DNA from: a virus
Length of the DNA stretch: 59,083 bases
Reading direction: 5' to 3' (one strand)
Virus record (IMG/VR): IMGVR_UViG_3300042568_000868
Location: 1 to 59,083 of that record
How positions within the stretch are numbered: the first letter of the stretch is position 1; each line of letters starts with the position of its first letter. Below the pieces are notes generated by a model. That model saw only the letters and a list, made by a program, of their open reading frames with translations. It did no database searches and was not told the origin of the DNA. The translations under genes were made by a program, and so were the position numbers. Of this stretch, positions 29,712 to 47,045 are shown one piece after another.

Positions 29712-29718
29712 CATGTAT

Positions 29719-29757
29719 AAGCATTGAGCCTTCGGGCTCTTTGCTTTTCTTTTGCTA
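29719..29757 (+). terminator. Rho-independent terminator with UUCG tetraloop
   Basis: GAGCC-TTCG-GGCTC forms a perfect core stem (29726-29739). It is extended by AAGCA/TGCTT across a two-base mismatch and followed by a T-rich tract to 29753. It lies 7 bp after the stop of the first rightward gene. Confidence 0.9.
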
Positions 29758-29762
29758 AAGGG

Positions 29763-29809
29763 ATTAGTACCGTCTACATAACTTTGCACGTAATTAATTA
29801 GTACCGTCT
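29763..29809. repeat. 13-bp direct repeat, 34 bp apart
   Basis: ATTAGTACCGTCT occurs at 29763-29775 and again at 29797-29809. The spacing equals that of another unrelated pair at 45435 and 45469. The pair starts a non-coding region, so it may be an operator. Confidence 0.6.
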
Positions 29810-30283
29810 CTAGCCTTGCTGATAGGTAAAAGGCCAATTGCAGCTGCAGGCACATACCTAATCAGGCTTACAGTATTAGAATACGTTGGGTACACACTAA
29901 TCTATACAGAAATATGATTGGTTTACAGTTAAATCACGTGTTTTGTATAGATAATATTATGGTTGAGTAGAGGTTGTTTGGGGACTATCCTTATGTTCCC
30001 CTTTTAACCACTTTCTAACTATACCCAAACATCACACCATTCTAGCATTATATGGCCTAAACGCATTTTAAGGCCTTCTAAGGCATTATTACCCTTATAG
30101 AGTTAAGTGTGTAGTGTAGATTGACATTAATGCCTTAAATCGCCTTAAAATAACAAAAACTTAATAACTTTCCAAGTCATCGAGGACACCAGTTTCTATG
30201 CTAACTAAAGGACGACTACGGCCGATTCATGGGTAACATAGTTTTAGGTGTAAGATGCAAATAATTATTAATCAATAACAATT
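29810..30283 (+). ncRNA. Non-coding structured stretch before the 83-aa gene
   Basis: No convincing gene is present. Several hairpins are visible: CTATACA/TGTATAG (29912-29955), GGGGA/TCCCC followed by TTTT (about 29979-30005) and GGCCT/AGGCC near 30050. There is also an AAGGCATTA/TAATGCCTT inverted repeat (30081-30137). A two-part stem (ACACC/GGTGT and CTATG/CATAG) closes a ~65-nt element ending near 30253. The last element sits just before the next start and could be a regulatory leader. Confidence 0.45.
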
Positions 30284-30535
30284 ATGAACAGAATTAAACT
30301 ATTAGTAGCATTAATACTATTAATAACCTTTGCTATTAGTGCAAAGACAATATTTCCATCTGAGTATGTAGTTGAATATGATGTTCTTTATAAGAATAAA
30401 GTAATATCTACCAACAATATATTCATTGCTGAGAATCCAATCAGGAATAAAATGTACAATAGAGTTAAGCATATAGCTAAGCTTAAATACAATAAACCTG
30501 TAGATATTCATATAAATAAAATGGGCTACCAATAA
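30284..30535 (+). CDS. Small exported or membrane-anchored protein (83 aa)
   Basis: It begins MNRIKLLVALILLITFAISA, a clear signal peptide or membrane anchor, followed by about 60 polar residues. The start is preceded by the recurring leader motif TTATTAATCAATAA. It is the first of several small secreted or anchored proteins in this arm. The target is likely the host envelope, but no function is recognised. Confidence 0.65.
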   Translation: MNRIKLLVALILLITFAISAKTIFPSEYVVEYDVLYKNKVISTNNIFIAENPIRNKMYNRVKHIAKLKYNKPVDIHINKMGYQ

Positions 30536-30550
30536 CTAAATCAATTAATT

Positions 30551-30823
30551 ATGGCAAAGACTATAGTATTTAAGAAGGAATTTGAGGTGTTGCTCAAGAA
30601 ACATAAGGTTAAGACCAGATTTGTGAAAGAACTACGCAGGTATTGCAATGAAAATCAATCGCATACTGGCATACTATCTAAACGTGTTAAAGACCTAAAT
30701 AATAAAGAAAACTTTTATTTCTTCATTGCAGGAGCTTTTGTATGGAACACAGAAGGCGGTATATCTAATTTTGAAAATAGTTCATTTTGGTATAAAATAG
30801 CTGTATCTAATACAAATGGCTAA
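30551..30823 (+). CDS. Basic small protein, paralogue 1 of 3 (90 aa)
   Basis: It starts MAKTIVFKKEFEVLLKKHKV, then KTRFVKELRRYCNE, and is closely related to the next two genes. The shared plan is a TIxFxxEFE start, a KxKTxFVxEL helix and a C-terminal aromatic part with a F-x-W motif. High Lys/Arg content suggests RNA or DNA binding. It overlaps the next gene by 8 bp, so the three are co-translated. Confidence 0.65.
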   Translation: MAKTIVFKKEFEVLLKKHKVKTRFVKELRRYCNENQSHTGILSKRVKDLNNKENFYFFIAGAFVWNTEGGISNFENSSFWYKIAVSNTNG

Positions 30824-31076
30824 GACTATATACTTTAAACCAGAGTTTGAGAAGAAGCTCAAGGAGCTTAAAATCAAAACAAAGTTTGTCAATGAACTGC
30901 GTAGGTATTGCAAGGCTACTAATAAGCACTTCATAAACAGAGCTGAATTGATAAATAAGAATCAAAGGTTCTATAGATTTCTGTTTGATGGATTCCCGTG
31001 GCATACTACTAAAGATGGATATCCTTATTGGTCAGCAATGTTTAATAAATCTTATGAATTATGGGACAAACCGTAA
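30816..31076 (+). CDS. Basic small protein, paralogue 2 of 3 (86 aa)
   Basis: It begins MAKTIYFKPEFEKKLKELKI and shares KTKFVNELRRYCKA with the first copy. The C-terminal half is aromatic (RFLFDGFPWHTTKDGYPYW). Its ends overlap both neighbours by 8 and 16 bp. It is one of three tandem duplicates that lie directly upstream of the four-hairpin RNA array. Confidence 0.65.
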   Translation: MAKTIYFKPEFEKKLKELKIKTKFVNELRRYCKATNKHFINRAELINKNQRFYRFLFDGFPWHTTKDGYPYWSAMFNKSYELWDKP

Positions 31077-31336
31077 TCAACCTGCCAGAAAGACACGATA
31101 TACAGCTAAAAAAGCTTCGTGTCAAAACAAAGTTCATTGAAGAGTTTAAGGCTCAAAACAAAAGAGATTACACGACACAAGAAGAAATAGATGATATTCT
31201 TAGTAGACACACAAGCATACGTGCTCTTTTAATGGTATCATTTTCGTGGTTTAACTCCATATATGGATTAAAATACTGGAAAGACATTTACAAAAAAGCA
31301 AAAGCAATGGAATGCGGTTCATTGCCTGATAACTAA
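31061..31336 (+). CDS. Basic small protein, paralogue 3 of 3 (91 aa)
   Basis: It is the most diverged copy: MGQTVINLPERHDIQLKKLR, then VKTKFIEEFKAQNK. The F-x-W motif is kept as VSFSWFNSIYGLKYWKD. The RNA hairpin array begins at its stop codon. The association of basic paralogues with a repeated RNA may be functional. Confidence 0.6.
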   Translation: MGQTVINLPERHDIQLKKLRVKTKFIEEFKAQNKRDYTTQEEIDDILSRHTSIRALLMVSFSWFNSIYGLKYWKDIYKKAKAMECGSLPDN

Positions 31337-31530
31337 GCATAGGATGACAGCCTTGGGTGAGTGCCCCTTAATCAGTCATAAAAACATAGGATAATAACCT
31401 TTGGTGAAATGCCATTAATAATTGATTAGATAAAACATGAGTTGATGACTCCGGGTGAAATGCCCCAATAAAATCAGATGAAAACTGTAGCGGTGAAATG
31501 CCGTATTTACGAATGAAACGAGAGTTATCA
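31337..31530 (+). ncRNA. Array of four hairpins with a 16S rRNA 690-loop-like sequence
   Basis: Four units of about 37-52 nt start near 31337, 31384, 31436 and 31485. Each contains an inner 3-bp stem and a TGAAATG loop: GGG-TGAGTG-CCC, TGG-TGAAATG-CCA, GGG-TGAAATG-CCC and CGG-TGAAATG-CCG. The closing pair changes as G-C, T-A, G-C, C-G, which is compensatory. Outer stems such as ATGAC/GTCAT and TGAT/ATCA frame them. The fourth unit matches the universal 16S segment GTAGCGGTGAAATGC exactly. A rho-independent terminator follows. Confidence 0.65.
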
Positions 31531-31542
31531 TTTGGGACTAAT

Positions 31543-31580
31543 ATGGGAGATGTGTTTTGCGGCATGTCTCCCATTGTTTT
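31543..31580 (+). terminator. Strong terminator after the hairpin array
   Basis: ATGGGAGATGT (31543-31553) pairs with GCATGTCTCCCAT (31562-31574) over 11 bp including wobbles. The T-rich tract TGTTTT follows (31575-31580). It would end the array transcript 20 bp before the next gene. Confidence 0.85.
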
Positions 31581-31600
31581 ATCTACTAACAAATATAGTT

Positions 31601-31870
31601 ATGGAAAAAGATAAACCAACAGAATACAATCCTACACAACAAGAGATTGAAGACTTTATTATCCATAAAAATGGGTATTCAAAGAAAGAAGAAAGATTGG
31701 GTGTGGGTAGAAATATCAATGATAAAACAAGAGGTAAACTCATCCACAGAGAAGGGAAAAGAGAAGAAGTCTTGTATGAGAATAAGCCTTGGGCTCTATT
31801 GCAGTCATTGAAAAAGGGGTTAATTAAACAAGGTTATAAAAGTTCTAATCTAATAATAACATATGTTTAA
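31601..31870 (+). CDS. Small basic protein downstream of the RNA array (89 aa)
   Basis: The frame is open from 31532, but that part overlaps the terminator. The better start is the ATG at 31601, preceded by an A-rich leader. The product begins MEKDKPTEYNPTQQEIEDFI and is basic with GRNINDKTRGKLIHREGKRE in the middle. It lies where the toxin would lie in a type III toxin-antitoxin locus but is only half the length of ToxN-type toxins and shows no match to them that I can see. It overlaps the next gene by 8 bp. Confidence 0.6.
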   Translation: MEKDKPTEYNPTQQEIEDFIIHKNGYSKKEERLGVGRNINDKTRGKLIHREGKREEVLYENKPWALLQSLKKGLIKQGYKSSNLIITYV

Positions 31871-32147
31871 AGATAAGAAATTCTCAAAGGAATCAGTTAT
31901 ATACACATTAATAGTAATACTAGTGTCTATATTGATTGGTTTAGCTATTGGATTGCAGAGCAACAAAGTTGGTAATCCAAAGGTCTATTATATGACCTAC
32001 GATGTTTATGCTGATTCTATTTATGAAGATGTTTGTACAGGTGTAAAAGCAAATTCATATCAAGAAGCCAGAGAAAAGATTCTCAAGATTGAGAAAATGA
32101 GATTAAATGCTGATTCTATTATTGAGAAGAAGATAATGGAAGAATAG
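31863..32147 (+). CDS. Single-span membrane protein (94 aa)
   Basis: After a short basic start (MFKDKKFSKE) there is one membrane segment (VIYTLIVILVSILIGLAIGL, residues about 12-31). A soluble C-terminal domain ends in a charged helix, AREKILKIEKMRLNADSIIE. The topology suggests an inner-membrane protein with an outside domain. Its stop is 5 bp before the tRNA-Glu gene. Confidence 0.65.
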   Translation: MFKDKKFSKESVIYTLIVILVSILIGLAIGLQSNKVGNPKVYYMTYDVYADSIYEDVCTGVKANSYQEAREKILKIEKMRLNADSIIEKKIMEE

Positions 32148-32152
32148 TATAA

Positions 32153-32223
32153 GGCCCTGTCGTCTATGGGTAGGACGCCACACTTTCAGCGTGGAAAACG
32201 AAGTTCGAGTCTTCGTGGGGCTA
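32153..32223 (+). tRNA. tRNA-Glu (anticodon TTC)
   Basis: A full cloverleaf is visible. The acceptor pairs GGCCCTG with TGGGGCT (G-U pairs included). The D arm is GTC/GAC, the anticodon loop is CTTTCAG (TTC at positions 34-36), and the T arm is CGAAG-TTCGAGT-CTTCG. There is an A-C mismatch at the base of the anticodon loop. The CCA end is not encoded. It opens a 1.1-kb non-coding region. Confidence 0.9.
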
Positions 32224-33229
32224 CAATAAAACAAAAATACTCTAAGATTGCCGCGCGGGCTACAAATGAGCAAGAACAATATTTGCAAGAGTATTTACTG
32301 TTTTTAGCAGGACATGTAGTGGTGTGAAACCACTTTTTCACTATGTCTTGCTTTTTAAATAAACCAATCTCAGATTGAAGCAACAGATAATCTAAGGACG
32401 TAAAAAATTCTGAGAATAGCCTCTTCGTAATGAATGTAGCTCAGGGAGACGATTATCGACCTAATGCAGTAGGTCAGTTTGTTAGATGTAGTAAAATCCA
32501 GTGAAAAACAGCGGTATTTATAATCCGAAATTAATAAGTATTACTCCACTACAAGGACTGAGATTGGTTTTAAATACAGTCGGAAAACATTGACACGACT
32601 TTAAATGAGAATACTAACCCTGAATACAGGGTGATTGAAATCAAGATAAACGTAGCTGCCGCGAAAGCAATCTGTAGAAATACACAGTCATAAATTACGA
32701 ATTCTTCAATGGGGCCAGAATGAGAGAGTTCGGGCATTTCAATCGGAGTAATCCTAGATGTGTTGTTTCCTTGAGAAAGGAATGATTGAATATATGGAAG
32801 CAGGACTACCTATATCAACACAAATGAGTTCTCAGCAAAGATGATTAATCCAACGGAGGAAAGCATAGTAATATGTGAAGGACACTCAAAAGGGATGCAG
32901 ATAACCAAAGTCTTAGAAAGGTCTGTAATCATCGTGACCCTATTATCTTATTAGTTTGTGCCTATAAAAACAAGGCTGTATAACTGTTCTAATAGGATAT
33001 TAGGGTGCTAAAAACAAATATATAATAATTGATGCATCTAAGGGGTCTCCGATGTAATATTCGGGGGCAAGTCTAACCCAAAGCCTCTCATTATTGTATT
33101 AATATCTATATTTTATATCAAACGGCAAGGAATCGGGTCCGATATAAATTACTCATCCATATATAAAGTATAGATACAACAGTGATAGGGTTGCATACCA
33201 TAAGAACTGCACCCTATCCATTTTAACAG
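32224..33229 (+). ncRNA. Candidate large structured RNA (~1.0 kb) between tRNA-Glu and a tRNA-like element
   Basis: No open frame of note lies here. Many hairpins are present: the bulged 14-bp stem at 32306-32352, GACCTA/TAGGTC near 32458-32475, ACCCTG-AATA-CAGGGT near 32620-32635, TTCCTT-GAGA-AAGGAA near 32766-32785 and GATAGGGT/ACCCTATC at 33184-33218. The longest pairs 32938-32954 with 32989-33005 over 17 positions with one mismatch. Density and tRNA neighbourhood recall large phage RNAs such as GOLLD and ROOL, but no sequence match is claimed. It may be one RNA or several. Confidence 0.5.
32306..32356 (+). terminator. Strong hairpin with T tract
   Basis: AGCAGGACATGTAGTG pairs with CACTATGTCTTGCT (32339-32352) with a two-base bulge. 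An inner GTGGT/ACCAC stem continues it, and TTTTT follows. It could terminate the tRNA transcript or be a domain of the larger RNA. Confidence 0.6.
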
Positions 33230-33299
33230 GTCACCTACTTCAGTTGATGATAGCCAATTGAAGCCACGGAAGAAAGGAGTTCGAATCTCTAAGGTGGCA
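33230..33299 (+). ncRNA. tRNA-like element without an anticodon arm
   Basis: The acceptor stem GTCACCT/AGGTGGC (7 bp, one G-U) and a T arm with the canonical loop TTCGAAT (33280-33286) are clear. A73 is at 33299. In place of the D and anticodon arms there is one 9-bp hairpin, CTTCAGTTG/CAATTGAAG, with an 8-nt loop, then a single-stranded linker. No anticodon can be read. It could be a decayed tRNA or a tRNA mimic. It stands 50 bp before the next gene. Confidence 0.55.
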
Positions 33300-33349
33300 C
33301 AAACATTTTTATTCTAATCAATTGTTTAACACTCAAAATTATCAAAATT

Positions 33350-33613
33350 ATGGGAACAAGTACCTTTACATCGTTTTTGCTACAATTCAAGTTTGCTCCG
33401 AATGCAAATGTAGCTAAATTATTGAAATCTGGAACCGCAACAGATGCTGAACTCGCTCAGGCAGTGAAAACTACCAAGCAGTACAAAGAAAACAAAGACC
33501 TTCAAACTCAAGTAGCAGTGGTTATTGCCAAAGCAACAGAACCAGTTGAAGTGAAAAAAGTTGCAGAACAACCAAAGTCTACGTCCACCCGTGCTGGTGA
33601 GCCAAGACGTTAA
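33350..33613 (+). CDS. Small Ala/Lys-rich protein (87 aa), unknown function
   Basis: It begins MGTSTFTSFLLQFKFAPNAN and is helical in the middle (residues about 20-70), with VVIAKATEPVEVKKVAEQPK. It ends in a basic tail, STSTRAGEPRR. Codons are G+C-rich relative to neighbours, suggesting good expression. A 14-bp hairpin terminator closes it. Confidence 0.6.
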   Translation: MGTSTFTSFLLQFKFAPNANVAKLLKSGTATDAELAQAVKTTKQYKENKDLQTQVAVVIAKATEPVEVKKVAEQPKSTSTRAGEPRR

Positions 33614-33631
33614 TTGTTAAAACAGAAATAA

Positions 33632-33675
33632 AAAGAAATGCATCCTTTCTATTAGATTGGGTGTGTTTCTTTGTT
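33632..33675 (+). terminator. Hairpin terminator after the 87-aa gene
   Basis: AAAGAAATGCATCC (33632-33645) pairs with GGGTGTGTTTCTTT (33659-33672) over 14 positions including three G-U pairs. The 3' arm is T-rich and followed by GTTAATT. Being A/T-rich it could also act on the opposite strand. Confidence 0.7.
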
Positions 33676-33696
33676 AATTAATCAATAATTAATAAA

Positions 33697-34938
33697 ATGA
33701 CAAATTGGGAAAAATCATGCGTTGAAGCACTAGTAGCTAGTCCAGCAGCATTCGCTTTATTTAAAGCTAAACAAAAGAATAAAAAGCATGTTGACCAATA
33801 CTTGAATAAAGTGTGGCCATACAAGATAGAAAAAGAATTCAAAAGTGGAGATGACAACAGAAATATTATCCCTAAATTTAAAGCTGCAACATCATGTCTT
33901 GCGGAAGGAAGGATAGGAGAGTATGTAATATATCTTAAACCAAGAATCAGAAAAGAACAATTAATATCAATAATAAATAGGGCAAAAAAAATAACTCCGC
34001 CAAAAGTGGAGATACATAATGCCTCATTTAAAATCATACTTCACTCAAACATTGGTGACACAGAGGCATTTAATGTATACGCATTCAAAGATGAATGTCC
34101 TATGACGTCAATGGAGTATAGAATATCGAGATTGGATGGTGAATTTGTTGAAAAAATAGTATTCTCAACAAATAGAATGTATGATTCTAGCTTAACTCAT
34201 CAAGAAATAAGCAAAAGAATAAAGCCAGTTCTTAGTCATTTCCTTAATCAATTTAGTGCAAGCTCATTATCTGGTCGCTGTAACTACAAAAGGGAATACA
34301 AAGGTCAAAATGTTGGCATTGAGATAGAGTACGATGGACAATGGCAAAAGTATTTGCATAGACATCTAAACAAATCTAAAAATGCAATAAGCTTTAATTC
34401 TGGGTTAGATGGTGGAGAACAAAACCTTAAAGGTGACAAATACCACCTAATACCGAGACTAAGAGAAAATAGACTGAGAATAAACGGGTCAAGAGGTCTT
34501 AATGCTTTATATACGTTATTAATCAGTATGAAGAATGATGGATGTACAATGACTAATAAGTCAGGAATGCATTATCATATTGATTTGACTAAAAAGAAAG
34601 GAGCCGAAGATGATTCTAATTATTCATCAAAAGTGGATGAAATTAGAAAGGATTTGTATGATTTGGCAAAGAAAGACTGGGAAACAATAAGTGCAATAAG
34701 AAATATATTTGAATTAGACTATATTGATCCATCTCACTTTGTTAGAGAAATAAAGTATCCAACAGAGTTCCGTACAATGGAATGGAGAATGGGAAGTCAA
34801 TCATTAAACTTCACCAAAATAACAATTCAAATACTATTTTCAATTCACATGTCAAATGCAGTATTTTCAAAAGAAAAAAAGATTGATATTGAATATGTAA
34901 AATTCCTATCGTCTTTAATAACTAAAATTAATCTCTAA
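33697..34938 (+). CDS. Amidoligase-like enzyme (COOH-NH2 ligase fold)
   Basis: The 413-aa protein shows the key blocks of the amidoligase_2 family: VGIEIEYDG (residues about 206-214), SGMHYHIDL (289-297) and a later EFRTMEWRMG (about 355-364). These supply the metal-binding Glu, His and Arg residues of a glutamine-synthetase-like fold. The family joins amines to carboxyl groups of peptides or cell-wall components. The N-terminal ~190 residues are an unknown additional domain. In a phage it might modify a host protein or envelope peptide. The leader motif TTAATCAATAA lies at 33678. Confidence 0.7.
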   Translation: MTNWEKSCVEALVASPAAFALFKAKQKNKKHVDQYLNKVWPYKIEKEFKSGDDNRNIIPKFKAATSCLAEGRIGEYVIYLKPRIRKEQLISIINRAKKITPPKVEIHNASFKIILHSNIGDTEAFNVYAFKDECPMTSMEYRISRLDGEFVEKIVFSTNRMYDSSLTHQEISKRIKPVLSHFLNQFSASSLSGRCNYKREYKGQNVGIEIEYDGQWQKYLHRHLNKSKNAISFNSGLDGGEQNLKGDKYHLIPRLRENRLRINGSRGLNALYTLLISMKNDGCTMTNKSGMHYHIDLTKKKGAEDDSNYSSKVDEIRKDLYDLAKKDWETISAIRNIFELDYIDPSHFVREIKYPTEFRTMEWRMGSQSLNFTKITIQILFSIHMSNAVFSKEKKIDIEYVKFLSSLITKINL

Positions 34939-35368
34939 ATATAAAACAACTGAATTTCTTAATCTGTGCGTAAAACAATGCGATTTGTTTCGATGGAAAG
35001 ACGAGGTGCGGTTAGATTCTATTGCAAAAAGCCGAGATGGTATCAAAGGCAAAAGTACTTAGTAAGAATAATATATATGAGAGTGTTATTCTGTCGGGGT
35101 TTACCAGACTACCGGAAAAGTCAATATTGGTACAGATATGTAGCCAATCTGATTGTGATATTAGCAATCAACTTTTATATGAATGTACAATAGTATAAGA
35201 GAGAGATTAATTTTAAACCTGATGGCTGGAGCGAAACCAGATAGGGAATCATGGCAAACCATGGGAGTCAGTAAGCTTAGAAGAAACGAAGCCTCGTAAT
35301 GTTATGCGAGTATAGCGTGGGGTGGTTCCACGACTGACAACAATTATTTATTATTAATTTAACAATCA
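34939..35368 (+). other. Non-coding stretch with structured 3' part
   Basis: The first half (34939-35200) contains only a weak open frame of 75 codons starting with GTG. Its composition is basic and unlike neighbouring proteins, so it is not called. The second half holds two small hairpins and a cloverleaf described separately. The stretch separates the amidoligase-like gene from the next membrane protein gene. Confidence 0.55.
35226..35338 (+). ncRNA. tRNA-sized cloverleaf RNA preceded by two hairpins
   Basis: CTGG/CCAG (35226-35240) and CATGG-CAAA-CCATG (35250-35263) come first. Then 35267-35338 folds as a 72-nt cloverleaf. The acceptor-like stem is GTCAGT/ACTGAC and 2 nt follow. The D-like arm is GCTT/AAGC with a 10-nt loop, and the anticodon-like arm is CTCGTA/TGCGAG. 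A 5-nt variable segment leads to a T-like arm CGTGG/CCACG with a 7-nt loop stacked directly on the acceptor. The loop is GGTGGTT, not TTCRA. It copies tRNA geometry without the tRNA consensus. Confidence 0.6.
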
Positions 35369-35686: not shown

Positions 35687-35689
35687 GTA

Positions 35690-35836
35690 GCTATGCTTGT
35701 CTGTGTCAGACATAATAGTAGGCTCGGAGTATGCCTCGAATACTCCTGTGATATCATAGTTCGGCCTCCACGTGGCGATATTGGATTAAAACTAATGAAC
35801 TAAACCTGTCAAGATAGCTTAACCTAAAGCGCTATC
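35690..35836 (+). ncRNA. Structured RNA with a three-helix junction
   Basis: GCTATG (35690-35695) pairs with CATAGT (35755-35760). It encloses TGTCTG-TGT-CAGACA (35698-35712) and GGAGTAT-7 nt-ATACTCC (35726-35746), a perfect 7-bp arm with a 7-nt loop. A further hairpin GATAGC/GCTATC spans 35813-35836. There is no gene between 35687 and 35910. Function is unknown. Confidence 0.5.
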
Positions 35837-35910
35837 AACTCATGTTGAGGATAGAGATTGTGGATGATACCCACACTTGGCGCAATTAAACATTTATTAA
35901 TCAATAATTT

Positions 35911-36021
35911 ATGGGAAAAACAGTAAAAAAAGGAATTCTAGAGAATGAATTCAGAAAATCTGAGAAGTCATCAGACAAGAAATTGAAAATGAAACCATTC
36001 GATAAAAAAGAAAGGGTGTAA
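35911..36021 (+). CDS. 36-aa Lys-rich peptide
   Basis: The frame begins MGKTVKKGILENEFRKSEKS and ends KMKPFDKKERV. It follows the recurring leader TTATTAATCAATAA (35894-35907) and ends 2 bp before the next start, which supports it as a gene. It is very basic (about one third Lys) and may be disordered. Confidence 0.55.
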   Translation: MGKTVKKGILENEFRKSEKSSDKKLKMKPFDKKERV

Positions 36022-36023
36022 TT

Positions 36024-36422: not shown

Positions 36423-36433
36423 AATCATTCAGT

Positions 36434-37378: not shown

Positions 37379-37383
37379 TAGAG

Positions 37384-38265: not shown

Positions 38266-38337
38266 CATACGGCCCGTTAGGCTGTTTCATGGACGAACAA
38301 GACCGGGCTAGCATCATGCCCGCACCTCCACCAAAAC

Positions 38338-38410
38338 TACTATTTAGCTCAGTTGGTAGAGCATCCGCAGTAGGGGAGTGTCACCAGTTCGAATCTGGTA
38401 ATGGTAGCCA
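38338..38410 (+). tRNA. tRNA-like gene with encoded CCA and a shortened anticodon arm
   Basis: Acceptor TACTATT/AATGGTA, D arm GCTC-AGTTGGTA-GAGC, T arm ACCAG-TTCGAAT-CTGGT, G73 and CCA are all canonical. The anticodon part (38364-38382) is 19 nt instead of 22 or so. It best pairs TCCGC with GGGGA around only 4 nt (AGTA), so no 7-nt anticodon loop can be drawn and the amino acid is unknown. It may be a deleted tRNA or a deliberate mimic. The genomic CCA suggests a charged or processed end. Confidence 0.65.
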
Positions 38411-38597
38411 CGCAATAAGGGGGTGAACAGAATTGATTGGCGTCAGGAGTGATTCAGATAGGACTGTGTACAACGATAAATGGCAACATTATCACAATCA
38501 GAAACTACGTAGGTCAAGTAGCCTAAAAGTTTCGCCCCAGTACGGTTTGCCGTGGCCTTCGATGAGCGCTGGGGACCTAATTTTAATCAGTAAAATT
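38411..38597 (+). ncRNA. Structured RNA after the tRNA-like gene
   Basis: The 187 nt between the CCA end and the next start have no convincing gene. AGGTC (38511-38515) can pair with GACCT near 38575. Within it CCCCAG (about 38535) pairs with CTGGGG and encloses ACGG-TTTG-CCGT. The open frame through here lacks a good start and is unlike the membrane protein it joins, so it is treated as RNA. It could be a leader of that gene. Confidence 0.45.
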
Positions 38598-38951: not shown

Positions 38952-39397
38952 CTTTAAAATGGTTTGATAGAGAAGTTCTATGTGAATTGATTAAAAGTCA
39001 AGGCAATACAACTATCATAAGAACAAACGAGAAAATAGACGAAAAGAAATGCATGTTTAATTGGGTTCCATCATCAATCTATCAAAAGAGAATAGAAGGA
39101 TTCCAATGTTACAAAGTGATTCCAGTAGTCTTTGAATCAAATATATCTAGTCCTGCTCAGGAAGAGATAGATTGGATTAAAAACAAAGTACTAACAACTA
39201 ATTCTGAATCAATATCAGACATGACTATGTTAGTAAATCTATCTATATTTGAATCTAAATTAAATAAGAAGCTTCACAGCTACTTTGTAAAGAAAATCAT
39301 ATTCGATACCGCAAACGAATTGAAAGAATTAATTGCAGAACAAAATAGAAAGAGAGAAGAATTAATAGAGTTTCAACTAAATCAATTACCTTTTTAA
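38936..39397 (+). CDS. Hypothetical protein (153 aa)
   Basis: It begins MQSIVTLKWFDREVLCELIK. A beta-rich N-terminal half is followed by a helical C-terminus, with ELKELIAEQNRKREELIEFQ at the end. It overlaps the membrane protein gene and is 1 bp from the next. Function is unknown. Confidence 0.6.
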   Translation: MQSIVTLKWFDREVLCELIKSQGNTTIIRTNEKIDEKKCMFNWVPSSIYQKRIEGFQCYKVIPVVFESNISSPAQEEIDWIKNKVLTTNSESISDMTMLVNLSIFESKLNKKLHSYFVKKIIFDTANELKELIAEQNRKREELIEFQLNQLPF

Positions 39398-39398
39398 G

Positions 39399-39725
39399 AT
39401 GAATTGGAATTTAGACTGGGAAAGAGACAATAAATACAAGAGAATGAGACTTGCTAAAGCCTTATCTCCATCTTGTATCCCATTGAGTTACAATGAACTA
39501 GTATTAACTACTAGAAAGAAGAATCCTTGCGAATACATGTTGAATGCTGTTAAGTGTATCAAAAAACGCTTAAGTATTTCATATGGATTGACAAAAGATT
39601 CCTTCTTAGAGCTTATGACATCAAGCTACTTTAAGGTAGAAGACTATCAAATCGAGCTAAAAAAGGCAGGAGATTTAGATAGTGGATGGTGTTTCATGAT
39701 AAGAGGGTATTATTTAACACCTTAG
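39399..39725 (+). CDS. Hypothetical protein (108 aa)
   Basis: It begins MNWNLDWERDNKYKRMRLAK and is basic and helical, with AVKCIKKRLSISYGLTKDSF in its middle. It ends with GWCFMIRGYYLTP. It is part of a tight operon that leads to the sigma factor gene. No family is recognised. Confidence 0.55.
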   Translation: MNWNLDWERDNKYKRMRLAKALSPSCIPLSYNELVLTTRKKNPCEYMLNAVKCIKKRLSISYGLTKDSFLELMTSSYFKVEDYQIELKKAGDLDSGWCFMIRGYYLTP

Positions 39726-39730
39726 AATAA

Positions 39731-39877
39731 ATGAAAGTTTGTAAAGAACAGTCTAGTTGGTTTTGCTCCGGACCATACTGTAAGACTTGCCTTTTTGGAG
39801 TATTGGATTCAAGTAATAATTCTAAAATAATTATTGATGAAGAAGAAGAATATCGCCTTAGTGACGCGCAACACTAG
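39731..39877 (+). CDS. 48-aa cysteine-containing small protein
   Basis: The frame begins MKVCKEQSSWFCSGPYCKTC, with four cysteines in 20 residues arranged C4, C12, C17, C20. This is a possible zinc knuckle. The end is acidic (IIIDEEEEYRLSDAQH). It starts 5 bp after the previous stop and ends 15 bp before the sigma factor gene. Zinc peptides next to sigma factors sometimes act as anti-sigma factors, but this is only a guess. Confidence 0.55.
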   Translation: MKVCKEQSSWFCSGPYCKTCLFGVLDSSNNSKIIIDEEEEYRLSDAQH

Positions 39878-39892: not shown

Positions 39893-40519
39893 ATGGCGGA
39901 TGGAAGAACGATAAGCCATAGATTCTTGGTTGAGTCTATGGTAACAAAGCTATCTAACCTTAATATACATAATATGAATGTAAAAGAAGAAGTAGAGAAG
40001 GCTAAAAATGGGTCAGAAAAGGCCTTTACTAATCTGTATAATGAATTCCAAAAGGTAATTTATGTAGCGATATACAATATAGTAAAAAACAAAGAAGTCG
40101 CAGAAGACTTAACATCTGAGACATTTATAAAGATTTACAAAAACTTACACAAATACACAAAAGACTTTTCATTTGTTATGTGGGCTAAAACAATTGCAAA
40201 TCATCATGCTATTGATTATATACGTAGCGGTAAGAATCAATACAACACTCAATCACTTGACGATGAGATGGCAAATGTTATAGAGATTTCTGATTATACA
40301 GATCCTGAAACAAGCCTTATAAACAAAGAGATGGCATTACTAGAAAACGATGCCATTAAGTCATTAACCAAAAGAGAGTATGAAATAGTAAAATTAAGAG
40401 AAGAAGAAATTCCATACTCCAAAATAGCGGAGGAACTTGGAGTTAGCATAGGGACTGTAAAGAGTTCTATTCACAATTATCGTAAAAAAATTAAAAAATA
40501 CATAACCAAAAAAGAATGA
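39893..40519 (+). CDS. ECF-type sigma-70 family factor
   Basis: The 208-aa protein has sigma region 2 with AFTNLYNEFQKVIYVAIYNI (about residues 45-64), VAEDLTSETFIKIYKNLHKY and MWAKTIANHHAIDYIR. Region 4 is a helix-turn-helix: LTKREYEIVKLREEEIPYSK-IAEELGVSIGTVKSSIHNYR (about 158-197). Region 1 and region 3 are absent, as in ECF factors. It should bind host core RNA polymerase and direct it to a phage promoter class, perhaps the middle or late genes. Confidence 0.9.
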   Translation: MADGRTISHRFLVESMVTKLSNLNIHNMNVKEEVEKAKNGSEKAFTNLYNEFQKVIYVAIYNIVKNKEVAEDLTSETFIKIYKNLHKYTKDFSFVMWAKTIANHHAIDYIRSGKNQYNTQSLDDEMANVIEISDYTDPETSLINKEMALLENDAIKSLTKREYEIVKLREEEIPYSKIAEELGVSIGTVKSSIHNYRKKIKKYITKKE

Positions 40520-40523
40520 GTAT

Positions 40524-40922: not shown

Positions 40923-40983
40923 GTTAAAATAAAAAAACAAAGAAGAAAAAAGAGAAAGTTAGATTTATCAAAAATTTAAAAAA

Positions 40984-40989
40984 AGGAGG
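40984..40989 (+). promoter_or_regulatory. Unusually strong Shine-Dalgarno site (AGGAGG)
   Basis: AGGAGG stands 7 nt before the ATG of the 286-aa gene. Most genes in this window have A/T-rich leaders without such a site, as expected in Bacteroidota, so this gene is translated by a different or enhanced route. Confidence 0.75.
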
Positions 40990-40996
40990 AATTTAT

Positions 40997-41857
40997 ATGA
41001 ATCTTCAAATGAACATGGATCATATGTTCAAATACCGTGAAATCCTTGTAGCAAAATCAGAGCTTGCAAGGCAGTGTGGAAACCAAAGACAGCTAAATGC
41101 TCTATTGAAGAGTATTACCGCAATAGATGTTATGTTGGAATCCGCTTTAATGGCAACAGTTGATAAATGCATGCCTGAGATTAAGTTTAATCTTGATATG
41201 TTTGATTCAACCAGTTTGCAGTTCTTAATGCCGAATGTGAATATCGCATTATTACCAAAAGACACACAAGTAACCCTAAAATTTGATAGCGAAGATGAAA
41301 CTCTACCCAATGGAGACGAAAAGGCATCTACCGTATCAATCATCGAAGGATTATTGAAAAGCAACTTTACCTCAAATATAGAAACTGCAGTAAATCTGTA
41401 TATTGAGAAAATTGATGCAAGTGCGTCGTTAGCCGAAGCATGGTTATCCATCGTAGCTTTATTTCCCGAAAGAGAAGTATTTAAAGTTTGGCACAATTAT
41501 CTAACATCCATTTTCCGTACGCAAGGACCAATAGTTGCATTTGCATCAGCAAAGAAGCATCTTAAACAATGGGATGATTTAGAAGTAGCCAAGTTTATTG
41601 GAAAGCTAATTGAAGATCGCATTGCAACAGAGCCGTATTCTATTGCCAACGAGCTTCAAAATGCCATGAACCCTACTCAAGCCCAAATCTATGGGTATAT
41701 TGAGGACAAAAAGATTTCTTCTTTGATTGACAAAATGAATCTTGAAAACATTAAATCAAAACAAGAATTCGTCCATCGGGTGGTAGCCTATTGCAATCCT
41801 TCCAAAAGAGAGCAAATAGAAAAGCGCCGGAAGAATTATGTAGAGAAAGGTTATTAA
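40997..41857 (+). CDS. Hypothetical protein with strong ribosome binding site (286 aa)
   Basis: It begins MNLQMNMDHMFKYREILVAK. It is helical at both ends, with a beta region near residues 85-105 (VTLKFDSEDETLPNGDEKAS). The C-terminus is basic (NPSKREQIEKRRKNYVEKGY). No domain is recognised. The sequence uses more G+C-rich codons than its neighbours. It sits between two membrane-protein genes. The full Shine-Dalgarno sequence and codon use suggest high expression. Confidence 0.65.
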   Translation: MNLQMNMDHMFKYREILVAKSELARQCGNQRQLNALLKSITAIDVMLESALMATVDKCMPEIKFNLDMFDSTSLQFLMPNVNIALLPKDTQVTLKFDSEDETLPNGDEKASTVSIIEGLLKSNFTSNIETAVNLYIEKIDASASLAEAWLSIVALFPEREVFKVWHNYLTSIFRTQGPIVAFASAKKHLKQWDDLEVAKFIGKLIEDRIATEPYSIANELQNAMNPTQAQIYGYIEDKKISSLIDKMNLENIKSKQEFVHRVVAYCNPSKREQIEKRRKNYVEKGY

Positions 41858-41875
41858 CTATAAATTGAGTGCAAA

Positions 41876-42274
41876 ATGAAAAATATAGTTAAATTTATCT
41901 GGATCCTCTCTATGTTTTGTTTAGGGATGTTTTTCCACACACACGACTTAGTGTCTGTCGAGAACATAAAATACAAAGCGATTTCTACATCTGAGTTAAT
42001 CAACAAAGATGTTCAATGTGTTTCTGACTTACTTAAAGTAAGCAAGGGATATCCTGAAACCACTAAAGCAATTAAACCTGCTCTAGTAAAATGTAAAGAG
42101 ATAAAAACTATTAAATCATCGAACAAGGAACTTGCCGCTACGAGAACCTCTGAGAACACGTTTAATAGAACATCTGAATCTGGAATAGCAACGTCGTTAG
42201 ATGAGCCTGGCTCCAGTGGAATACTTCATATTGATTATACAAAGAATCCTATCGAAGTTGTTTTTACATTTTAA
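41876..42274 (+). CDS. Membrane-anchored or secreted protein (132 aa)
   Basis: It has an N-terminal hydrophobic segment (MKNIVKFIWILSMFCLGMFF) and a Ser/Thr-rich exported part with two cysteines. The length and build match the protein at 40524, although sequence identity is low. Function is unknown. Confidence 0.55.
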   Translation: MKNIVKFIWILSMFCLGMFFHTHDLVSVENIKYKAISTSELINKDVQCVSDLLKVSKGYPETTKAIKPALVKCKEIKTIKSSNKELAATRTSENTFNRTSESGIATSLDEPGSSGILHIDYTKNPIEVVFTF

Positions 42275-42286
42275 ATAAAGAAAGTT

Positions 42287-42661
42287 ATGGATAAAGTAAA
42301 AATTGAAATTGCAAGATTAGTTTCTTGCAGAGTAAGAAGGCTCAAGGAAGCATTAATGGAAACAAGGGAATTGCGTTATGTCAAATTATATGGCAGTGAA
42401 AGATACGAATTCAACTTAAGAGAACTCCAAGAAAAGCTCGAGTTTGATATTTTAACATATCAGACAAGAATCAAAAAAAGTCTTTGTTCATTAACTGGAT
42501 ATTCCAGTAAAACAGATCTCGAGATAGAATATTTATCAAAAGAAGATCTTAAATCAGAAACTTTAGATATCTCTAAATTGCAAGATGGGAGTCGCCTCTT
42601 GAATTTGAAAACAGGAGAAATATCTACACAGAGAGCTAGAAATCTGTCTAATCCAAATTAG
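42287..42661 (+). CDS. Basic helical protein (124 aa), unknown function
   Basis: It begins MDKVKIEIARLVSCRVRRLK and is helical and strongly charged through residue 75, ending with a short polar tail. It is the last gene before the 1.7-kb non-coding region. A stable hairpin follows its stop directly. Confidence 0.55.
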   Translation: MDKVKIEIARLVSCRVRRLKEALMETRELRYVKLYGSERYEFNLRELQEKLEFDILTYQTRIKKSLCSLTGYSSKTDLEIEYLSKEDLKSETLDISKLQDGSRLLNLKTGEISTQRARNLSNPN

Positions 42662-44341
42662 CTATACAGATACCTTTTAAAACAGAAAAGGGGTATGTAT
42701 ATAGAGTTAGTTAACATGTATAATCTTTTAATTAGTATATGCTGGCTTGATGATGGATCAATTAAATTTGCCAGATACTAAAAGCGATTGGGAGCTATCG
42801 CTATACAAAATGCTCAAAAATGTAGGTGATACGTGGTTGCAGCCTAGACCGAAAGGGAATATCGTCAAGCAACAACAAGGTGTTTAAGCTTCACTATAGA
42901 AGAAGTAGAATCTATGTCTTAGCTTTTGAACTAAGCAGGAGATTAAGGCGAAGGCCGACATGTTTTTAGACATTCACGCAATATCAATGAGAAGCGGAAA
43001 GGTGTGTCCCTTTCAGAATGTAATAGTATGCTTCACAAGCAGACCATGCACATGGGAAAAAAGTGCAGAATAAATCAGTTCAATTTGAGTTTATTCACAA
43101 TATATTAAATTAGGCGGAAGAATAAACAGGTTTGAAAGAAAACCCCGGCCAGAAGACGACGGTATTTATATGGAAACATGTAAACGAGATTGATCTATTT
43201 AATATAAAATCGCTGCAAAAGTTATATGGTGAAACATTTAATCTAAGCACAATAGGCGATATAATTCAGCTCTCAAGTCTTGGCTTAATTTGGGTTCGAT
43301 TCCCAATATACCTTTAGGTTAAAAGATGCAGACATTCGTCGTTTCGAGATGTTAGACGAAGTAAAATAAGGAACATCCAGGCATCGCTGTGTTGTAGTGG
43401 CCTAAAACTACTGATGGACATTCTAGTAATAAAAGCTAGAGAACCTGAGAATCGGGGTATAACGATAGTCTTAACCCTAAACCAACGTCCCTTAATTCAC
43501 TATTCGACGAGACAGAAATGTGATATATCAGATACTATCCTACCGGCGATAAAACGTATCGCTTTAGCATAAAAGTAGTGTATTACTGTCTATAATATGC
43601 GAAAAGAACTGAAACAGTTCAATGCTTCTCAATAGTGGAAGGTCAACCACTCAAAAACCTTATTTAGAGGTCCCCTAATGAGCGCAAGTGATGATTAGGT
43701 ACTCTACTCCAATAAACAAATTCTAGACCCTTAGCGGGGCGCTAAATGCGTCGAAACTAAGCCTACATTAGCTCGATCAAGTGATTACTAATGCGGTACA
43801 CAAGCTAGATTACAAAACTCAACCCAGGTGTAAGCCCTGGCATAGGAACTTCAGAAAACTATCTCCTCATTAGAGACAGGAATTGATACAAAGTTCGTTG
43901 TTTTACCAAAGTTTTATCTTTTTTCCAAACAAAAAAGTATATGCAAAAACATATGTCTCTTTAATTCTATTTCAATATATTGCTATTAGTGTATTTGAAT
44001 CGAAGTTATGACTCGACAGTTGTTCGATAGATTGTAAAGATAATAATGTGATAGAGCCACATATTACTTGGACAATATATGTTTTAGCATCCCAATTATA
44101 TAAATATGGACTGCATTGGCGTAAACCCAAATCGTTATCGTAAATAACGTGTCTATTTAAAAACAACAGAATTCTTTAAATGTAAGACGATAGTTAAGTT
44201 AACCCCGCATGGTGAACATTACGTCCTGTTAAAAGAAAGTATAGTAAAAAGATTTACTGTACGTAGACGCTCAAAAAATTCTACAATAAGTTTTATCGTA
44301 AGAGTTTAGTAGACTACAAAAAGAGAAAATAAAATAGTTTT
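42662..44341 (+). ncRNA. Candidate giant structured RNA region (~1.7 kb)
   Basis: No credible gene is found on either strand. Stable hairpins occur every 40-80 nt. CTATA..ATACCTTTT pairs with AAAAGGGGTAT..TATAG (42662-42704). Others are CTGGC/GCCAG enclosing TTGAT/ATCAA (42742-42774), AGCGAT/ATCGCT (42783-42802), GAAAGG/CCTTTC (42997-43014), GCGATA/TATCGC (43546-43562) and GAACTG-AAA-CAGTTC (43606-43620). Further ones are CCTAAT/ATTAGG (43674-43699), CATTAG/CTAATG (43766-43793) and CCAGG/CCTGG (43824-43840). The extent and number of transcripts are unknown. It compares in size with known large ornate RNAs. Confidence 0.5.
43254..43314 (+). ncRNA. tRNA-like 3' half with canonical T arm
   Basis: TTGGG-TTCGATT-CCCAA (43290-43306) is a perfect T arm. 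The following TATACCT can pair with AGG and TATA at 43254-43263 if CGA is bulged. The middle lacks normal D and anticodon arms. It lies inside the 1.7-kb RNA region, so it may be a domain of it and not an independent tRNA. Confidence 0.4.
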
Positions 44342-44352
44342 TTAATCAATAA
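44342..44352 (+). promoter_or_regulatory. Recurring leader motif TTAATCAATAA
   Basis: This motif stands 14 bp before the 156-aa gene. The same 11 bases are found at 30268, 33678, 35897 and 36940, always 5-15 bp before a gene that follows a non-coding stretch. It may be a translation-enhancing leader. Confidence 0.55.
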
Positions 44353-44365
44353 AAAATATAAAGTT

Positions 44366-44836
44366 ATGAGCAAAAATAAAATGAAAAATTTCCAAGGTTT
44401 ATTTGGAGGCGCAATTCACTCTATCGTAAGTACTTCAGTTGACGCAGGATACCGGGCTAAGTCCGATGAAGAAAAAATCAATGTACAAGCTAAATTGTAC
44501 ACAGTAAAAACTGTAAACGTAAACAGCTTGAAGCTTGCAAAAGCAGAAGGTGGTGTTGACGTTGTTATCGTTAACGGAGGCGAAGAAGGCCTAACTTTAC
44601 CATGTACCCATGAATTTGTTACCAAAGCCGATCAAGTTGCCACATCTACTGATGGTGTAACTGGAAAATGGTTTGGAGAATATGCCGTTTGTGCAGATTT
44701 CTGCAATGCAATGAATGGAGCTGAAAAAGCTCGACTAGAAAAGATCATGAAAGATCTTCAAGGACAAATCGGCTGTTTGACTGATGTAATTTCTGCAAAC
44801 AACCAAAAACGCGAAGTATATAACTTCGAAGACTAA
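44366..44836 (+). CDS. Hypothetical, probably well-expressed protein (156 aa)
   Basis: It begins MSKNKMKNFQGLFGGAIHSI. A beta-rich middle with KTVNVNSLKLAKAEGGVDVV and a polar C-terminus follow. Codons are balanced and G+C-richer than in most nearby genes. It follows the giant non-coding region and leads an operon with the 180-aa gene 8 bp downstream. No domain is recognised. Confidence 0.6.
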   Translation: MSKNKMKNFQGLFGGAIHSIVSTSVDAGYRAKSDEEKINVQAKLYTVKTVNVNSLKLAKAEGGVDVVIVNGGEEGLTLPCTHEFVTKADQVATSTDGVTGKWFGEYAVCADFCNAMNGAEKARLEKIMKDLQGQIGCLTDVISANNQKREVYNFED

Positions 44837-44844
44837 TACTTGCC

Positions 44845-45387
44845 ATGAGAGTAAAATTGGATCGGTACGACAAGTTGAGACTAGCCGAGCTAGTTGACTC
44901 TTGTCTTACCATAACCAACGACTACACAATTAGTAGTAGTGGTGAAGTAGATTACTCTGAACAAGGTCTGGTAATGAGAGTCATAAAAGGCGTGGAAGCG
45001 TCTAAAATGGATTTCCTTACAGTAGTACATAATGTATCCGAATCAATCATGGGTAGAGTTAATTTAAATGATTACTCTAAATTCCTATGTGGTAAAGCAC
45101 TTGGAATTTTGATTGATACAAATAACAGACCAGAAGTAATCAAATGTCTTTATGCAGCCTTTCTGCTTAAGGACAATCTGCTTGCAACACCAAATGGACG
45201 TGGAAATGCCAGCCAAGGTCCACTAAAAATAGATAAAATAGAAAAGGTGACTAGAACGGAAATCGTACCGGCAAAATTTGAAAAGATTCCTACTAGTAAT
45301 GACCTTGCTCGAAATTTATCTAAAGATGTTGCAAATATCTTGAACAACGAACTCGAAAGAGGCTCTATTATCGTAATTAATGAATAA
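44845..45387 (+). CDS. Hypothetical protein (180 aa)
   Basis: It begins MRVKLDRYDKLRLAELVDSC. The first 110 residues look like an all-helical domain. After that comes a linker and a C-terminal helix, SNDLARNLSKDVANILNNEL. It is the partner of the 156-aa gene. Function is unknown. Confidence 0.6.
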   Translation: MRVKLDRYDKLRLAELVDSCLTITNDYTISSSGEVDYSEQGLVMRVIKGVEASKMDFLTVVHNVSESIMGRVNLNDYSKFLCGKALGILIDTNNRPEVIKCLYAAFLLKDNLLATPNGRGNASQGPLKIDKIEKVTRTEIVPAKFEKIPTSNDLARNLSKDVANILNNELERGSIIVINE

Positions 45388-45710
45388 AAGCATAAATCAA
45401 TAATATATTTTATTTAATCTAGAGAATTCAGCTAGAGTAACATCCTAATTGATATTTGTGTATAGTTGGAGTAACATCGTAATACTATATACATGTCGAA
45501 ATATCAGGCTATGTTTTCTTGAAATTGAATTTTAAATATATTATTGGTTGAAAAAAAAATATTAATATAGGAGAGGGGTAACACCCTTTCCTATATCTAA
45601 TAATATGTAAATGGTTATTGTAGGTTCGATTCCTACTATCATACACGGGAAGATTAAGATTTCTGGTTGAACAATTAAAAAAAGTATCAATCTTAAATAA
45701 TAATCAATAT
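45388..45710 (+). ncRNA. Non-coding stretch with a 13-bp hairpin and a T-arm-like element
   Basis: ATATAGGAGAGGG (45565-45577) pairs with CCCTTTCCTATAT (45584-45596), 13 bp with one G-U. A canonical T arm GTAGG-TTCGATT-CCTAC follows (45620-45636) with TATCATA after it, but a matching 5' acceptor strand is weak (TATG at 45604 only). No gene is seen. It may be a short structured RNA with a tRNA-like end. Confidence 0.45.
45435..45483. repeat. 15-bp direct repeat, 34 bp apart
   Basis: GAGTAACATC(C/G)TAAT occurs at 45435-45449 and 45469-45483, with one difference. The 34-bp period equals that of the pair at 29763/29797. Confidence 0.6.
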
Positions 45711-46187
45711 ATGCAAAACATTTTTAACAAACTTACAGTAAAAAAGAATTTCACTCCAACACAATTGATCGAAAAACGCGAATCTCTAATTGAAGATATC
45801 AAACGCGAATGGAAACGAATCCTATCTTTCAATGTAGTTACCAACGGTACAAAACAAGTGTTTGACTTGAAAGCTGTATATAAACAAATTAAATCATTTG
45901 AAGCTGATTTAATCGACATTAAAGTATCTATCCAGGCTGTGAATATGGGATTAACCTCTCTATCTCAAATGCCTAAAGAAAGCTCCTATCCATCAATCTT
46001 CATCTTATCTCAATTGAAAGAGCATAAGTTGAAATTGCAAAAAATTCCTACAAAAAAAGAGGAAGGAGAATCAGTAGTTTTCACTCGAAAATTCATTGAT
46101 GAAGAAGTAGGAAAAATTGACGCACAAATCAAGAAAATTGAAAAAGAACTTGCAGATTACAATTCAGAAATCGTTTTTACAGTCTAA
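45711..46187 (+). CDS. Coiled-coil protein (158 aa), unknown function
   Basis: It begins MQNIFNKLTVKKNFTPTQLI and is almost wholly helical, with VFDLKAVYKQIKSFEADLID (about residues 49-68) and EEVGKIDAQIKKIEKELADY near the end. It lies 3 bp before the 240-aa gene. It could be a structural or assembly partner of that protein. Confidence 0.6.
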   Translation: MQNIFNKLTVKKNFTPTQLIEKRESLIEDIKREWKRILSFNVVTNGTKQVFDLKAVYKQIKSFEADLIDIKVSIQAVNMGLTSLSQMPKESSYPSIFILSQLKEHKLKLQKIPTKKEEGESVVFTRKFIDEEVGKIDAQIKKIEKELADYNSEIVFTV

Positions 46188-46190
46188 CGT

Positions 46191-46913
46191 ATGGTTATAT
46201 TATTAGAAAACAAAGTTTTACCATGGGAATGTGAAGTTCTCACGTATAAATTGCACGAGAAATTAACAAACTCGATTATATTCGTAAATGCCCAGATGCC
46301 ATTATTTGATTTGGTATGTAAAGACAGACGAGACAGCTCCAAACGAGTTATTCAAAACAAGCTGCGAGGTGATTCATTTTGTGATTACGTTACAGATGAA
46401 GAACTCAAAGAAAAAGGCGTATCTGTTGCAAGAGAACGAATATACGAGCAACTTACTCGACGAATGAACGAATATGGATTCTATGACGATCTTGAGACTA
46501 ATAGTGTAACATCTAAAAGCCCAATATTCATAGTGTCTAATCTTGACGACAAACTAAAGAATGAATTCACTGACTCATTTAGTAATACATACATACTTAA
46601 TAAGGAGGAAGGGAAATACACTATTGAGAGTTTTCTTGAAAGTAGTGATATTCTTTCATGTTTAAGTGGGATGCTAAATGAAGGGACTGAGGTTATTCAA
46701 AATGAAGATGACTTGCTGGCCTTTATTGAAGAAAAGAAGGCAGAAAAAGCCAAGTTAGATGCAAATAAGTCTTTAATCGAAGACGAAGAGCATCAAAACT
46801 TATCAGAGCATCTTGACAGACTGGCGCATACAGAGATTTTTGATTTCGGACTTGCAGAGCCGCCAACTGATAGAGCTGTTGATTTTCAAGAGCTCGTAAT
46901 GAATGCTGCATAA
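46191..46913 (+). CDS. Hypothetical protein (240 aa)
   Basis: It begins MVILLENKVLPWECEVLTYK. It has an alpha/beta first half containing RRDSSKRVIQNKLRGDSFCD and an acidic helical C-terminal half with EEKKAEKAKLDANKSLIEDE. It follows the coiled-coil gene with a 3-bp gap. No enzymatic motif is recognised. Confidence 0.6.
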   Translation: MVILLENKVLPWECEVLTYKLHEKLTNSIIFVNAQMPLFDLVCKDRRDSSKRVIQNKLRGDSFCDYVTDEELKEKGVSVARERIYEQLTRRMNEYGFYDDLETNSVTSKSPIFIVSNLDDKLKNEFTDSFSNTYILNKEEGKYTIESFLESSDILSCLSGMLNEGTEVIQNEDDLLAFIEEKKAEKAKLDANKSLIEDEEHQNLSEHLDRLAHTEIFDFGLAEPPTDRAVDFQELVMNAA

Positions 46914-46926
46914 AAACAAAAAAAAA

Positions 46927-46982
46927 TAGGAATGATGGTGAAGTCGCTTAATAGCGAACTGGGTTCAATCCCCAGATTCTAA
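46927..46982 (+). ncRNA. D-armless tRNA-like element
   Basis: T arm CTGGG-TTCAATC-CCCAG (46959-46975) is canonical. The acceptor pairs TAG(G)AAT with ATTCTA. A single hairpin TCGCT-TAAT-AGCGA (46944-46957) takes the place of the anticodon arm, again with a 4-nt loop, and no D arm is present. It lies in the 132-bp gap before the next gene. It parallels the shortened arm of the element at 38338. Confidence 0.45.
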
Positions 46983-47045
46983 CAAAACAAATCCTTTCAG
47001 ATAATATCACATAGAAATTTTTAAACTTTAAAGTAATAAAAACCT

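Follow-up and report, generated by a model that had tools for sequence, protein, structure and literature searches.

A conserved large RNA region, a permuted tmRNA and tRNA-like elements in the probable early arm of a Suoliviridae-like crAss phage

Permuted transfer-messenger RNAs (tmRNAs) have been described before, as have large ornate phage RNAs. Long, elaborately structured RNAs of the GOLLD and ROOL families, of unknown function, occur in phages and prophages near tRNAs, and in GOLLD the 3' part is conserved whereas the 5' part varies more freely (PMC12286853). Permuted tmRNAs of the Rfam family RF04321, which includes that of the Methylophilales phage Melnitz, are known in marine phages; they are phage-encoded and run from an acceptor piece through an intervening segment to a coding piece, with a G3.U70 pair and a tag open reading frame (ORF) (PMC9004378). 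Earlier Rfam models of permuted tmRNAs describe Alphaproteobacteria, Betaproteobacteria and Cyanobacteria (PMC11915505). The subject of this report is a 59,083-bp virus record (IMG/VR IMGVR_UViG_3300042568_000868; its full length is called the window), placed by its terminase (69% to cr118_1), portal and major head protein in the Crassvirales near Suoliviridae, Uncouvirinae, Besingivirus. Its plus arm between positions 29712 and 47045 carries a large conserved non-coding RNA region (the big RNA, 42662-44365) and a permuted tmRNA (38281-38526). We read this arm, with a probability of roughly 0.7, as the early-module RNA operon of a Suoliviridae-like crAss phage, in which the long non-coding stretches would be functional RNA genes.

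The virion genes lie on the minus arm of the window, and the plus arm proceeds from small genes to a sigma factor gene (39893-40519) and then to replication genes, including one for a DnaB-like helicase (47539-48564). Early (regulatory), middle and late modules have been described for crAss-like phages, with a Suoliviridae genome as the example (PMC10136315), and by analogy the stretch 29712-47045 looks like an early module. According to our hand-made gene list, from which all non-coding fractions were computed, 5,319 nt of this stretch (30.7%) are non-coding, compared with 1,130 nt (4.0%) of the virion arm at 240-28455, where the biggest gap is 147 bp, and with 7.1% of 47046-58680. Exactly ten gaps in the stretch measure 100 bp or more (572, 264, 1202, 175, 225, 102, 332, 1704, 323 and 132 nt). 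These counts bear out an earlier reading made from the sequence alone (the sequence-only reading), which had described ten or more gaps totaling about 5 kb, a quarter to a third of the stretch, opposite a virion arm almost devoid of gaps over 150 bp. Its further proposal, that the arm encodes many functional RNAs, agrees with the at least four kinds of putative RNA that are supported by comparison with relatives: the big RNA, the permuted tmRNA, the tRNA-like elements and a motif of ~110 nt at 30150-30260.

The big RNA lies on the plus strand in the 1,704-nt gap, which is flanked by homologs of the same genes in relatives, and a gap of 1.6-2.5 kb is found there in every arm compared. Pairwise blastn matches from gap to gap are colinear, every one of them plus/plus. 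Thirteen homologs, when aligned, show identities mostly of 40-55%, with islands of conserved motifs, and an nhmmer profile built from the homologs extends the big RNA to the relative L107. The best-supported parts are 42680-42940 and 43424-44210. In the Boorivirinae, where homologs are 2403-2514 nt long, the corresponding locus of cr50_1 (RefSeq NC_055868, positions 44405-46918) is a gap of 2,514 nt without annotation; it is homologous to gaps in cr55_1, cr1_1 and cr10_1, the last of which has one short hypothetical protein annotated inside it. The window's big RNA gave no direct DNA match to named phages, although the cr50_1-type homologs do match one another. Rfam searches of 29-48 kb of the window (E <= 10) and of the homologs (E <= 1) placed no known family in the big gaps. 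A conserved hairpin with a downstream ACC segment, possibly an H-type pseudoknot (AGTGGAAGGTCAACCACTCAAAAACCTT, 43634-43662, plus strand), was read by eye from the homolog alignment. Two weaker signals were set aside: a tRNA match at 43220-43314 (21.6 bits) is treated as uncertain, the L066 sequence there having no T-arm, and weak hits of a close-clade nhmmer profile near 1650-1750, on both strands and AT-rich looking, were ignored.

Compensatory changes in related phages, which the sequence-only reading had named as a check, are abundant. In an unfitted MAFFT alignment of ten phages, the whole gap has 16.6 two-sided compensatory cells per 220 alignment columns, versus 1.2 after column shuffling. 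Adjoining coding DNA of equal divergence has 4.8 versus 1.6, and the conserved helicase gene has 9.1 versus 5.2; the coding-DNA control is the better yardstick, since column shuffling breaks stacking and its z-scores exaggerate significance. The Boorivirinae big RNA has 21.4 two-sided cells versus 10.2 shuffled, with 19.0 versus 17.8 in the adjacent coding DNA.

Six homologs, the window not among them, served as the seed for a covariance model (R1) of the 3' domain (43819-43900, plus strand). R1 finds the window at E = 5.6e-9 as well as the relatives L103, L064, L096, L088, L106 and L107, each in the homologous gap. The domain consists of helices H1, P and H3, and RNAalifold applied to the R1 alignment suggests an extra enclosing helix that also has two-sided changes. 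Among 14 distinct sequences, 95.2% of cells are paired, 13 of 16 pairs change on both sides, and there are 51 two-sided cells versus 14.6 shuffled, while sliding the partner by 1-3 columns brings pairing to 52% or less; the alignment was fitted to the structure, and the counts thereby lean toward it. A search of the more distant arms of the Boorivirinae clade with R1 gave no match, so that position is the only link by which the large RNAs of the two clades are taken to be homologous.

The permuted tmRNA lies upstream of the sigma factor gene, as it does in relatives where this was checked, and RF04321 covers 38281-38526 at full length in permuted order (model positions 1-213; 37.6 bits, E 1.2e-7 for the genome). 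In the window and its relatives the acceptor piece comes before the coding piece. On the plus strand, the RF04321 match defines an acceptor piece (38281-38333) with the T-arm stem CGGGC/GCCCG, the acceptor 3' strand CACCTCC (38323-38329) and an encoded ACCA, and a coding piece (38419-38526) with the acceptor 5' strand GGGGGTG (38419-38425) and, after a resume site (ATAAAT), a tag ORF (38482-38526, GNIITIRNYVGQVA-stop). Between them, both ARAGORN and the Rfam tRNA model recognize a tRNA-Tyr-like element with a degenerate anticodon stem (38338-38410, plus strand). We parsed 14 of 15 tmRNA copies, and each has a 7-bp acceptor stem with G3.U70, the identity pair for alanine. Seven different acceptor sequences occur, and their strands covary: CACCTCC/GGGGGTG in the window, CAGCTCC/GGGGCTG, CAACTCC/GGGGTTG and ATGCTCC/GGGGCAT elsewhere, among others. 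The tags form two related sets, GN..TIQINNYVGL(VA/MSA) and GN.FVTDYTRIAA, with synonymous changes, and that of the window is related to GNKTIQINNYVGLVA, GNNTIQINNYVGLMSA and others in relatives.

One group of copies (the window, L201, L202 and L205) has a tRNA-Tyr or tRNA-like element in the intervening segment, an encoded CCA and a T-loop other than TTCGA; we read these features as processing that has shifted to the inserted element. A small branched element with a CCCCAG/CTGGGG stem and a TTCGAT loop follows the tag (38535-38574, plus strand); it was read by eye, has a similar counterpart after the L205 tag, and may be a tRNA-like or 3' processing element. Across 39 records, RF04321 gives 25 at E <= 0.1, nine over the cut-off (the window not among them) and 18 matches of at least 27.8 bits. 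Since 12 of 14 control genomes also match at E <= 0.1, with just one over the cut-off, weak matches to this model mean little by themselves.

Two tRNAs are called in the stretch, the Tyr element at 38338-38410 and a tRNA-Glu (TTC) at 32153-32224 (plus strand; ARAGORN, and Rfam at 44.2 bits). The tRNA-like elements claimed in the sequence-only reading are reflected in an enrichment of T-arms on the coding strand, both in the window and in 15 related arms. Five T-arm hairpins are found on the plus strand of 29712-47045, against 0.17 in dinucleotide shuffles (no more than one in any of 100), and none on the other strand. The related arms have 63 on the plus strand and 8 on the minus strand, with 2.9 expected; many are within called tRNAs or tmRNAs and about half are outside. 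For 34 tested T-arms outside called tRNAs, four of them from the window, the upstream sequence supplies a matching acceptor strand at a higher rate than shuffles do (p < 0.05 for 14 of 34; Fisher combined, 6e-11). These extra elements receive no ARAGORN call and form no cloverleaf with an anticodon arm, and the best acceptor strand begins 7-92 nt upstream of the T-arm; some are near-perfect minihelices, such as the one at 8468 in L071 (AAGTACT-AGAGG-TTCGACT-CCTCT-AGTACTT). The clearest element in the window (33230-33299, plus strand; acceptor match p = 0.02) has no anticodon arm and combines the acceptor GTCACCT/AGGTGGC with a long D-like hairpin and a T-arm. Its L066 copy has compensatory changes in the acceptor (GCCAAC/GTTGGC) and the D-like stems around an identical loop, ATGATAGC. 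The T-arm search also returned the plus-strand hairpin GTAGGTTCGATTCCTAC in the 323-nt gap (45615-45640), for which an acceptor stem was looked for and none was found, and a possible miniature tRNA-like element (46929-46980, plus strand) with a weak 5-bp acceptor whose match is not significant, a hairpin and a T-arm. Minihelices of acceptor and T-arm suffice for RNase P, and the tRNA-like elements are most likely RNase P/RNase Z cutting marks.

Comparison among the phages thus shows, at the level of sequence, that the position and structure of the big RNA are conserved, as are the architecture and tag of the tmRNA, and that T-arms and acceptors are enriched. The layout would be a structured RNA of 1.6-2.5 kb at a fixed place downstream of the sigma factor gene and a permuted tmRNA upstream of it, accompanied by short motifs and genuine tRNAs. 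Long early transcripts would be cut by host RNase P and RNase Z at the tRNAs and at the anticodon-less tRNA-like elements, and the cuts would free both halves of the tmRNA as well as the large RNAs. The tmRNA halves would then assemble, be charged with alanine and, with host SmpB, tag stalled peptides with a phage-specific peptide, and the large RNA would persist as a stable structural molecule, resembling GOLLD and ROOL in kind. A bolder version, to which we give slightly less than an even chance, is that Suoliviridae-like crAss phages encode an undescribed class of giant structured RNA (~1.5 kb or more), that anticodon-less minihelices punctuate the early transcripts, and that host tRNA enzymes release both the giant RNA and a two-piece tmRNA with a tRNA gene as its loop.

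Several observations weigh against an RNA operon or against its novelty. The sequence-only reading had pointed to stable hairpins in the gaps, and this part did not survive: the mean minimum free energy (MFE) z-score is -0.68 for the gaps, -0.61 for their reverse strand and -0.59 for coding DNA of the same arm (p = 0.86). Because the folding stability of the gaps matches that of coding DNA and the opposite strand, stable hairpins are not evidence by themselves, and we rejected them as an argument for RNAs; the structural evidence is comparative, not energetic. The gaps at 31337-31600, 35194-35368 and 35687-35911 gave no RNA evidence of their own. The middle of the big RNA (43030-43420) is poorly conserved, and the region may not correspond to a single molecule. 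The acceptor test is non-significant for three of the window's four extra T-arms. At 37.6 bits, the window tmRNA is below the RF04321 gathering score of 47 bits, and its T-loop is TAGCATCAT instead of the canonical TTCGA present in ten relatives; on both counts it could be decaying, an alternative to the shift in processing. As for novelty, GenBank/RefSeq already annotate a tmRNA in cr50_1 (39374-39869) and cr10_1, located upstream of the sigma factor like that of the window, so the idea of an undescribed system holds only in part, for the large RNA and the tRNA-like layout. The big RNA, its place and this layout seem undescribed in open-access sources, the subscription literature having been outside the search, and we found no discussion of tmRNA in crAss-like phages in the open-access literature.

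Three other explanations of the gaps were weighed. They might be mainly mRNA leaders, terminators and regulatory DNA around small host-takeover genes, with conservation due to cis-regulation and no free-standing RNAs involved. The alternation of small genes with gaps fits this, as do a slight excess of terminator-like sites over shuffles (12 versus 7.4) and the location of the 30150-30260 motif and of a block at 46982-47042 directly upstream of genes; however, a leader of 1.7-2.5 kb that covaries over most of its length would be unusual, and tmRNA and tRNAs are trans-acting by nature, so we regard this explanation as unlikely. It is less probable still that the large stretches are passively persisting remnants of mobile RNA elements, such as degenerate introns or tRNA-linked insertions. 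Group I introns are plentiful in Suoliviridae (PMC10136315), and the positions of related non-coding segments differ among L062, L066 and the window, but in divergent phages the big RNA is still flanked by the same genes and retains its base pairs, and no Rfam group I or group II intron matched at E <= 1.

Stop-codon reassignment, by which the gaps would be hidden coding sequence, has a precedent in the TAG- and TGA-recoding phages of Suoliviridae (PMC10136315). We rejected it as having almost no chance of being right: with TAG read as Q or TGA as W the gaps stay unfilled, the longest ORFs inside the two big gaps are at most 146 aa, and in no case does an ORF stay conserved in a single frame. 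The idea of conserved ORFs within the big gap was likewise dismissed, as peptide matches occur in all frames on both strands, which DNA similarity alone predicts.

Among the other non-coding segments of the RNA-rich arm, the motif at 30150-30260 (plus strand, upstream of the gene at 30284) is 84% identical in L066; aligned in 8 phages, it yields an RNAalifold consensus of two hairpins. A region of ~1.0 kb (32225-33229, plus strand) fills the interval between tRNA-Glu and the tRNA-like element at 33230-33299; L066 has a similar ~1.0 kb spacing, and short matches to other L066 non-coding loci make this region a candidate second long RNA. A conserved non-coding block in the replication arm (50713-50989), of which ~120 nt are 70-82% identical in many relatives, is a candidate leader RNA of the gene at 50990. 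Matches of the window to the Rfam families ohsC, CRISPR-DR46 and drum (E > 3) were attributed to chance. A divergent intergenic region of 755 nt (28456-29210) separates the two arms; it contains AT-rich direct repeats and may be an origin or a region of bidirectional control. In the gap that opens the arm, TAACTTTGCAC at 29779-29789 is similar to the Bacteroidetes -7 promoter motif. Three tandem, paralog-like small genes (repeat D1; 30551, 30816 and 31061) span 30551-31336, and the 264-nt gap contains degenerate direct repeats of ~50 bp (ACATAGGATAATAACCTTTGGTGAAATGCC-like, 31334-31500).

Relatives have further segments of this type. An RNA-like non-coding segment of 80-92% identity occurs in L062 (10303-10667, reverse strand, reversed coordinates) and twice in L066 (226-507 and 13480-13757), at different places in different phages as if it were mobile. 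A third conserved non-coding region, of ~1.3 kb, in L062 (5246-6567, reversed coordinates), L064 (1887-3336) and L066 (1966-3264) was not observed in the window. Boorivirinae arms contain hatchet ribozymes and RAGATH RNAs recognized by Rfam (L071 3792-3919 and 5789-5955; L069 2332-2502; L075 2722-2821). Since those arms also carry Rfam RNAs, richness in RNA is a property of the family and not of a single assembly. The 100 kb that we read of crAss001 (Steigviridae) contain no tmRNA annotation, and every gap in them is shorter than 1.6 kb.

crAss-like phages are among the most abundant human gut viruses, and as of a 2023 review Suoliviridae had no cultured member (PMC10136315). Given a phage tmRNA whose loop contains a tRNA, together with miniature tRNA-like elements, the idea that tRNA enzymes punctuate phage transcripts becomes directly testable. 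A conserved structured RNA region of 1.6-2.5 kb at a fixed locus, left unannotated in RefSeq cr50_1, gives RNA biology a concrete object of study, just as GOLLD and ROOL did before it.

Several described RNAs offer comparisons. The hatchet ribozyme, RAGATH-9 and RAGATH-22 of Rfam, present in the same arm of Boorivirinae relatives, were not found in the window. The cr50_1 record, which annotates its tmRNA, leaves the nearby 2.5-kb RNA region without annotation. Unlike phage copies of RF04321 such as that of Melnitz, the tmRNAs described here belong to crAss-like phages and have other tags, and those of the window group have a tRNA or tRNA-like element in the intervening segment, an encoded ACCA and an altered T-loop. 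The big RNA is a large covarying structure in a phage near tRNAs and in this resembles GOLLD and ROOL, as an analogy only; the models of these families (RF01998 and RF03087) gave no match at E <= 10 in 29-48 kb of the window or at E <= 1 in the homologs. By Rfam it is a member of neither family, and by analogy it may work as they do. It differs from them in the size of the region (1.7 kb, compared with 659 nt for ROOL env-120 and >800 nt for many GOLLDs), in its other conserved motifs, and in its fixed place downstream of the sigma factor gene in Suoliviridae-like phages.

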